From Procambarus clarkii (Eukaryota > Arthropoda > Malacostraca > Decapoda > Cambaridae): a stretch of 64,000 bases of DNA. The position numbers were made by a program, and so were the translations under genes. Location of the stretch: NCBI RefSeq assembly GCF_040958095.1, contig NC_091175.1:22398659-22462658 (forward strand), read 5' to 3'. The notes under the pieces are model-generated. The model searched no databases. It was given only the letters and a program-made list of their open reading frames with translations, and had not been told where the DNA came from. Shown one piece after another: positions 22,601 through 25,600 of this stretch. Positions within the stretch are counted from its first letter, which is position 1, and each line of letters starts with the position of its first letter.

Positions 22601-25600
22601 AAGAGAGAGACACAGATAAAGGGAGAAAGAGTGAGAGGGGGAGGAAATTAAGGAAAGATAGAGAACAGAGAAAGGTCTCCTCTAGATGTATGTTATAGCA
22701 AACTTACCCATGGACGTGGAGGGTGACAACTTACCCGTGGACGTGGAGGGTGACAACTTACCCGTGGACGTGGAGGGTGGCAACTTACCCGTGGACGTGG
22801 AGGGTGACAACTTACCCGTGGACGTGGAGGGTGACAATTTACCCGTGGACGTGGAGGGTGACAACTTACCCGTGGACGTGGAGGGTGACAACTTACCCGT
22901 GGACGTAGAGGGTGACAACTTATCCGTGGACGTGGAGGGTGACAACTTACCAGTGGACGTGGAGGGTGACAACTTACCCGTGGACGTGGAGGGTGGCAAC
23001 TTACCCGTGGACGTGGAGGGTGACAACTTACCCGTGGACGTGGAGGGTGACAATTTACCCGTGGACGTGGAGGGTGACAACTTACCCGTGGACGTGGAGG
23101 GTGACAACTTACCCGTGGACGTAGAGGGTGACAACTTATCCGTGGACGTGGAGGGTGACAACTTACCAGTGGACGTGGAGGGTGACAACTTACCCGTGGA
23201 CGTGGAGGGTGACAACTTACCCGTGGACGTGGAGGGTGACAACTTACCCGTGGACGTGGAGGGTGACAATTTACCCGTGGACGTGGAGGGTGACAACTTA
23301 CCCGTGGACGTGGAGGGTGACAACTTACCCATGGAGGTCGAGGGTGACAACTTACCCGTGGACGTGGAGGGTGACAACTTACCCGTGGACGTGGAGAGTG
23401 ACAACTTACCCGTGGACGTGGAGGGTGACAACTTACCCGTGGACGTGGAGGGTGACAACTTACCCGTGGACGTGGAGAGTGACAACTTACCCGTGGACGT
23501 GGAGGGTGACAACTTACCCGTGGACGTGGAGGGTGACAACTTACCCATGGACGTGGAGGGTGACAACTTACCCGTGGACGTGGAGAGTGACAACTTACCC
23601 GTGGACGTGGAGGGTGACAACTTACCCGTGGACGTGGAGGGTGACAACTTACCCATGGACGTGGAGGGTGACAACTTACCCGTGGACGTGGAGGGTGACA
23701 ACTTACCCGTGGACGTGGAGGGTGACAACTTACCCGTGGAGGTCGAGGGTGACGTTGAGGAGAGCGTTGAGGGGCCGCTGGTTGTAGTACTGCTCTTGTT
23801 CTATACCGGTGACGTGGACTCCCCCTCCCCCACGGTGCTTGGTGCGTGGGATCTCCGGCACCAGGATGTCCCGATCACCCATTATGGTCTGTCTCGTCCA
23901 CAGGTCCCAGTCTATACCCTGTGGCACATACCACATTTATTGTTACCCAACCTTAGAGATCCATTTAGCTATCAGAATGGGTACATAATGAGCCTACTAA
24001 ATGTAGCCTAATGAAAGTAAATGTGGACTAATGAAGTTAATGGTAACATTAGCAATACGACATATATATATATATATATATATATATATATATATATATA
24101 TATATATATATATATATATATATATATATATATATATATATATATACATAAAGAATAAGGATGACAAATTGGGTTTAGCTCCACATCAGCAAGTTGAGGC
24201 AGCTGACCAAGTGAAATCTGATTAATATCAGAGGTTGACAAAGCCAGCCCGTCCTATCGAGTTGTCACGACATCAACAAAAATGATGTATTAAATAGCCT
24301 GGACCTAACCTAACTTAACCGATGGAATACTAATGAAAAACGCAACAGCCCGTCAATTTAGTGAGCCGCTATGATTTATACCACATCATATTTTGACGCT
24401 GGCTGATTTTTACGTCAAAATACGATGTATTATACGTGAGGACAGACTGTGGCGATATAAGTGAAACAATAGATCCACACCATGAGGTAAATGCAGGTGT
24501 CTGGTGCAATGTGGCTAAAGGTCTGTAGGGTATTTTTAGTTTTTAGTTTTTTTAATAAATGTGATAGTCTTGGCTTTATTTATTTTTGTTTTACCCCATT
24601 ATAGCAAACTTCCGCACAATAATTAGTTAGTTGTAATCTGGAGGAATTGTTTTGGACCTTGCCTGAGGGTAAACTTTTAATATGGAATGTAGTTTAACCA
24701 GTTAATGTTAAGCAACTAAAACGTTAATCATCTGGTAGTACAGCAGTAATATGGCATCTTGGGAGGTGGGACATCAGTAATATGGCATCTTGGGAGGTGG
24801 GACAGCAGTAATATAGCATCTTGGGAGTTGGGACAGCAGTAATATAGCATCTTGGGAGGTGGGACATCAGTAATATGGCATCTTGGGAGGTGGGACAGCA
24901 GTAATATAGTATCTTGGGAGTTGGGACAGCAGTAATATAGCATCTTGGGAGGTGGGACATCAGTAATATGGCATCTTGGGAGTTGGTACAGCAGTAATAT
25001 AGCATCTTGGGAGGTGGGACATCAGTAATATGGCATCTTGGGAGTTGGTACAGCAGTAATATAGCATCTTGGGAGGTGGGACATCAGTAATATGGCATCT
25101 TGGGAGGTGGGACAGCAGTAATATAGCATCTTGGGAGTTGGTACAGCAGTAATATAGCATCTTGGGAGGTGGGACAGCAGTAATATAGCATCTTGGGAGT
25201 TGGTACAGCAGTAATATAGCATCTTGGGAGGTGGGACAGCAGTAATATAGCATCTTGGGAGTTGGTACAGCAGTAATATAGCATCTTGGGAGGTGGGACA
25301 TCAGTAATATGGCATCTTGGGAGTTGGTACAGCAGTAATATAGCATCTTGGGAGGTGGGACATCAGTAATATGGCATCTTGGGAGGTGGGACAGCAGTAA
25401 TATAGCATCTTGGGAGTTGGTACAGCAGTAATATAGCATCTTGGGAGGTGGGACAGCAGTAATATAGCATCTTGGGAGTTGGGACAGCAGTAATATAGCA
25501 TCTTGGGAGTTGGGACAGCAGTAATATAGCATCTTGGGAGGTGGGACATCAGTAATATGGCATCTTGGGAGGTGGGACATCAGTAATATGGCATCTTGGG

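Follow-up and report, generated by a model that had tools for sequence, protein, structure and literature searches.

How can an exon stay intact when its own 5' splice site is followed by dozens of near copies of itself, and how does such a series come into being? This question is raised by a POMGNT1-like gene, a member of the GNT-I family, in the crayfish Procambarus clarkii. The window analyzed here is a stretch of 64,000 nucleotides (C26:22398659-22462658 of a 4.03-Gb assembly), which carries on its minus strand two copies of the gene, A and B, together with the initial exons of another copy, C. At exon 8 of copy B, the end of the exon and the beginning of the intron together form the unit of a minisatellite. 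We consider it very probable that the array belongs to the “mirage” minisatellites (tandem repeats laid across an exon-intron boundary) and was born at the exon's 5' splice site by slippage or unequal exchange seeded at the junction, and tolerated since the first donor is the one used.

The array lies at 22701..23753 on the minus strand and consists of 39 units of 27 bp, as given by Tandem Repeats Finder (TRF; period 27, 39.0 copies, 96% matches) and by unit-by-unit reading. Unit 1 (23753-23727) is the true end of exon 8, composed of GTCACCCTCGACCTCCACGG followed by GTAAGTT, i.e., 20 exonic and 7 intronic nucleotides, and the 38 further units are located within intron 8. The most frequent later unit is GTCACCCTCCACGTCCACGG followed by GTAAGTT, with two substitutions relative to the exon end. 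A sequence-only reading of this DNA had already described the unit as a 20-nt copy of the exon end, with two substitutions, plus GTAAGTT, and the unit-by-unit reading bears this out. Its count of about 38 near-identical donors is right for the extra units, but slightly generous for the donors, with GT in 36 of the 38 and GTAAGT in 33. Over the entire array, 37 of 39 units retain GT and 34 retain GTAAGT; the variants are GATAAGT (units 23 and 31) and GTAAAT (units 18, 26, and 34). With 39 units across an exon-intron boundary, the array has the form that defines a mirage, and by itself it excludes a chance origin.

The exon to which unit 1 belongs was placed by homology with copy A, by the open spliced frame, and by alignment to human POMGNT1 (PDB 5ggf). 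Copy B exon 8 (23734..23918, minus strand) is 185 nt long, starts at the acceptor CCACAG/GGTATAG and ends in phase 2 at CACGG/GTAAGTT, the slash marking the junction. Its authentic donor, GTAAGT at 23728..23733 (minus strand), is the first of the series according to the unit reading and the open frame. The acceptor side of intron 8 is provided by exon 9 (21566..21674, minus strand, 109 nt), placed by copy A homology and the open spliced frame. The spliced copy B model, with 10 exons, is a single open frame, and matches human POMGNT1 (5ggf) at E = 3.4e-59 for a query without most of exon 1. Pfam GNT-I was matched by parts of the models, at E = 1.1e-28 for copy B and E = 3.3e-27 for copy A. The alignment of exons 8-11 to the human protein is continuous over the 8/9 join. 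The exon, the phase, and the acceptor at 21674, as first proposed, are correct on the strength of the open frame, the 5ggf match, and this continuity. Copy A exon 8 (54020..54204, minus strand) does end as a single copy, with one donor at 54020, GAAAG/GTAAGG, and no array.

What distinguishes the first donor from those that follow is its position. Unit 1 and every other unit with CGGGTAAGT have a U1 pairing energy of -10.9 kcal/mol, whereas the variant units pair more weakly (-9.8 to -5.0 kcal/mol). The authentic donor in unit 1 and the later CGGGTAAGT units are therefore equal in strength, and the choice among them must rest on position and not on strength. Because the exon ends in phase 2, reading on beyond the first donor gives GGG TAA, and for distal donors 2, 3, 4, and 39 the TAA is the next codon in frame, just as the sequence-only reading had claimed. 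When joined to exon 9, these four donors lead to a stop at one identical codon, and donor 1 is the sole donor among those tried that keeps the frame open. The assertion that only the first gives a full protein holds to that extent. An exon followed by 37 donors, of which 34 have the full GTAAGT, makes the locus a natural test of 5' splice-site choice, in which position differs and strength is mostly equal.

The same feature recurs beyond copy B. Eight tandem paralogs (Z and A-G) are present within 264 kb, the stretch to which the search was confined. The exon 8 array occurs in six of the seven paralogs having intron 8, being absent from A. Paralogs B to G hold 39, 33, 9, 23, 50, and 87 units, respectively, 241 in total with GT in 234. 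Unit number is thus unstable, from 9 to 87 across six paralogs of one assembly, and all six retain the exon-type unit 1 with its GTAAGT. An exon followed by 1, 9, 23, 33, 39, 50, or 87 units is a near-ideal experiment on scanning versus competition, readable from ordinary RNA data. In a genome search for the exon 8 array, for which the best candidates were scored, six full-length places were found along with 97 shorter matches inside the same six arrays. An array standing without its exon, which had been named in advance as evidence against the proposal, was not seen in this genome among those candidates, since each of the six full-length places adjoins exon 8. In paralog Z (C26:22482697-22482401, L023-L024), exons 8 and 9 are apparently fused, so intron 8 was either lost in Z or gained in the other paralogs.

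Other donors of the cluster have become arrays as well, with units of their own. In copy B, an array of 38-bp units (4.9 copies, 100% matches; TRF and junction reading) spans the exon 9 donor at 21403..21588 on the minus strand. Its unit is 23 nt of exon end plus 15 nt of intron (CACCAG/GTGAGT), and splicing from donors 2-5 would bring a stop after 13 further residues. The 38-bp array at exon 9 is present in B, C, D, and F, with a 57-bp array in E and a 24-bp array in Z; in F and G, exon 5 bears a 36-bp array, and G has two more, a 65-bp one at exon 1 and a 41-bp one at exon 11. Since the exon 8 unit holds both exonic and intronic letters, and other donors show the same with other units, the array appears to have been seeded at the junction, as the sequence-only reading had proposed. 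An array of another build is found at copy A exon 1 (60856..63485, minus strand; TRF and junction reading), with 97.4 copies of the 27-bp unit GGTGAGTACTGGGTACACTCGCTCTCT. This array abuts the donor without spanning it, the last exon base being 63497, and its unit has the intronic donor side in common and just 1 nt of exon. It occupies 2,630 of the intron's 2,701 bases. Read on from the exon, the frame runs through 63 codons of the array, about seven units, before it meets a stop (open reading frame 63658-63308).

Across the cluster, 16 of 79 donors lie inside arrays, at five exon positions, as against 0 of 68 acceptors (one-sided Fisher test, 2.2e-5, for paralogs that are not independent). 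The 79 donors exclude one end lacking GT/GC and six repeat copies that belong to the exon 1 array of G, and take in one false end in Z at the fused exons. The 68 acceptors are counted without three located exon starts lacking AG within 18 nt and without exon 1, the start of which is unplaced; exon matches covering <40% of the exon were discarded. Arrays at both the 5' and the 3' boundary, as reported in amphioxus, do not occur in this cluster, only donors being affected. Additionally, 16 of 74 intronic arrays span a donor or have an edge within 15 bp of one, compared with a mean of 1.3 and a maximum of 8 in 5,000 random placements of the arrays within their introns. The orientation is restricted as well. 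Among GGTRAGT arrays of at least 3 copies, 12 are in the sense orientation, all 12 at annotated donors, and 2 are antisense, neither at a donor; with at least 1.9 copies, 13 of 17 sense arrays and 0 of 4 antisense arrays are at donors.

Tandem donor motifs are in excess throughout the genome. Runs of three CAGGTGAGT spaced 10-40 number 12,537 in the 4.03-Gb genome versus 3,050 for the reversed motif, although as a single 9-mer the reversed motif is the commoner one (130,973 versus 57,423), so that runs per perfect 9-mer amount to 21.8% and 2.3%, respectively. The counts are 2,725 versus 553 for AAGGTGAGT and 33,649 versus 14,719 for GGTAAGT, the latter inflated by telomere-like repeats, and all of these run counts weigh long arrays heavily. 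Minisatellites that have sequence resembling CTCCTGTGCCAGGTAAGTCCACTACGGGCTC in common recur (L044; C26:22467800-22468094; C26:22498254-22498421), by eye in a repeat family and not at an exon, and such copies would inflate the genome-wide counts. Of 31 upstream flanks read outside the cluster, 5 hold a recognizable exon that ends at the first donor. These exons encode parts of An_peroxidase, 7tm_1, and PDZ (Pfam), a GH16 glucanase, and the fucolectin FBP32, and the matches end within two residues of the junction. The fucolectin match in PDB (L059) is by whole-sequence score, no single stretch passing alone. The 31 flanks include L038 and L039, in which the array reaches the end of the stretch, and L055 and L056, which belong to one gene family; 21 of them had a segment that was searched and 10 did not, having none or, in L038, one of 22 residues. 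Flank L056, much like the GH16 flank, was left out of the PDB search, and L035 was searched without two minor frames. The remaining searched segments gave no match, L055, L056, and L059 had no Pfam match, and L042 resembles a C-type lectin exon by eye, unconfirmed by any search. The seven reversed-motif flanks are a control too small for a test, with the cut placed 20 bases into the array. Five of them offered a segment, and no Pfam match at the curated level resulted, L063 showing just two DUF matches below threshold.

These observations suggest a simple course of events. A short duplication over the junction, of 20 exonic and 7 intronic nucleotides, would start the array, and replication slippage or unequal exchange may then amplify it into the intron. 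If the most upstream donor, the first, is the one from which the exon is joined, the later donors would be removed with the intron and the mRNA would be unchanged, so expansion at donors would be nearly neutral. Duplicating an acceptor, on the other hand, would place extra AGs upstream and interfere with the exon; such harm would explain why the arrays of this cluster are at donors only. Similar arrays at other genes are probably harmless, provided that cutting at the first site prevails. The donor-only pattern of the cluster and the motif excess of the genome suggest that the polarity of splicing shapes where repeats can grow. Such arrays may also mislead the annotation of genes and the assembly in genomes of this type.

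Comparable systems are known. The amphioxus mirages are described as tandem repeats over exon-intron boundaries with an unstable unit number and a normal mRNA, and are reported not to disturb splicing (PMC3087553; PMC3902484). The crayfish arrays resemble those described there for Adh3, globins, PGBD5, and TnC in that unit number differs between copies and several genes of one genome are affected. They differ in size, up to 87 units at exon 8 and 97 at copy A exon 1 compared with 3 and 6 in the reported globin haplotypes, and in that the amphioxus reports concern both boundaries, whereas the crayfish cluster, in another animal genome and known here from DNA alone, has arrays at donors only. 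Human F7 intron 7, according to a review (PMC6627357), has several 37-bp repeats, of which the first contains the real donor; by oriented scanning, this most upstream site is the only one normally used. Exon 8 is similar in that the first of the homologous repeats holds the real 5' splice site; however, its unit is shorter, at 27 bp, and first-site use is what we infer here. Repeats at exon-intron boundaries are also mentioned for human paralogs (PMC2812944). In literature searches for a crustacean report, donor arrays are described in none of the titles and abstract openings listed. The crayfish case is a known kind of feature in another genome, and what is unexpected is how frequent it is in this genome and that, in the cluster, it is confined to donors.

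Several points weigh against this account. The 16 array-bearing donors represent about five to seven origins, the paralogs not being independent. A circular-shift overlap test was not significant (17 observed against a mean of 18.8), and is not informative because arrays make up 23% of the cluster sequence. The lack of arrays at acceptors is in itself unremarkable under the placement null, which has a mean of 1.3 and gave none in 1,297 of 5,000 placements. When distinct loci are counted, on contig C1 to 59.1 Mb, the genome-wide excess is weak, 12 versus 7 by our count with the 58.1 Mb cluster taken as one locus (21 if it is split). Amphioxus reportedly has acceptor mirages too, so the donor-only argument is not general. 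Finally, human IFI6 is reported to use two downstream units as donors, with three mRNAs as the result (PMC4526556).

The IFI6 precedent also bears on whether the array is regulatory, with donor competition yielding truncated, nonsense-decay-prone transcripts that scale with unit number and tune the output of the gene. Like exon 8, IFI6 has tandem units that supply donors, and its downstream units are described as usable (PMC4526556); at exon 8, such use would truncate the protein at once. Its minisatellite (6-16, G1P3) was reportedly described with multiple splice donor sites by Turri et al. in 1995. The regulatory idea can point to the TAA next in frame after the distal donors tried, to the range of 9-87 units among paralogs, and to the phase of the arrays, since three of the five array-bearing positions (exons 5, 8, and 11) are in phase 2, where GTRAGT is an immediate stop; this association, 3 of 3 phase-2 positions with arrays versus 2 of 7 others, is not significant by our arithmetic. 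Yet the letters of the donors are not conserved above background. No donor-specific conservation was found within the 241 units of the six paralogs, with nonconsensus letters at about 3.1% for the nine donor positions versus 2.0% for the other 18 (our arithmetic), and a search for donor-specific selection on the units had a negative outcome, the donor letters being at least as variable as the others. Nor is the number of units conserved, and the F7 and amphioxus precedents report normal splicing (PMC6627357; PMC3087553). There is no sign that the extra donors are kept for use, and we judge regulation quite unlikely. The sequence-only reading had left it that the locus must tolerate or exploit donor competition. 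Tolerance is favored, given the first donor kept in six of six paralogs and the truncation that distal use would bring, while exploitation finds no support in the 3.1% against 2.0% or in the spread in unit number.

It is also unlikely that the donor motif is itself unstable, GGTRAGT DNA expanding anywhere and exon ends being affected merely for containing it. The genome-wide over-representation of the motif in arrays would be expected under this explanation, as would the arrays seen by eye in a dispersed repeat and not at an exon (L044; the antisense array at C26:22467800) and the 26 of 31 flanks outside the cluster that have no confirmed exon, 10 of them without a searched segment. However, the 12 of 12 sense arrays of the cluster at true donors, with just 2 antisense, disfavor motif instability alone, and the units are alike only at the junction, those that span it carrying 7-54 nt of local exon. 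A further model, proposed for the amphioxus globin mirages (PMC3087553), is an early stage of Rogers-type intron gain, in which a splice signal is duplicated in tandem and units are later recruited as exon or intron pieces. Copy A has intron 8 at the identical position and phase and free of any array, so that nothing indicates an intron created by the duplication, and we regard this origin as very improbable. Junction-seeded growth behind a first donor that remains in use is the reading that we retain.

The arrays may also travel with their exons. Among paralogs B-G, exon 8 shows 93-98% identity, and in 14 of 15 pairs the match begins 4-33 nt upstream of the acceptor, the exception being D/E with 60 nt at 88%; in 11 of 15 pairs there is no other match within 500 nt upstream of the exon. 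The 38-bp array of exon 9 is present in exactly those four paralogs whose exon 9 sequences are nearly the same (97-100%). More tentatively, and at slightly less than an even chance, we propose that a donor-specific process acting genome-wide makes 5' splice sites into minisatellites, that donor arrays, with the most upstream donor winning, are invisible to selection and can grow to take up nearly all of an intron, that acceptor arrays are removed, and that the cassette of exon and array is homogenized between paralogs.

Exon 4 (29736-29978 and 59118-59360; C-G in L009-L021) shows 93-100% nucleotide identity among paralogs A-G, against 63-77% for exon 5 in 19 of 21 pairs. No array is present at exon 4, and its pattern is read from the sequence as exon-sized gene conversion. 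The array was rejected as the driver of exon conversion, since exon 4 is equally homogenized without one; an array is thus not required. The exon 4 donors of B, D, and E start with GC, as AG/GCGAGT, GG/GCGAGT, and AG/GCCAGT (29730-29735; C26:22345920; C26:22322554).

Upstream of copy B exon 1, a G+C-rich array of 25-bp units with a strong strand skew extends over 6.9 kb (36587-43502, ~283 copies), and none of the located splice sites matched it. Long reverse-transcriptase-like frames and one further frame occur within or between the gene copies, at 852-3931, 9405-12434, 14145-17221, and 57176-58087; we take these to be LINE-like, with one of them Penelope-like.
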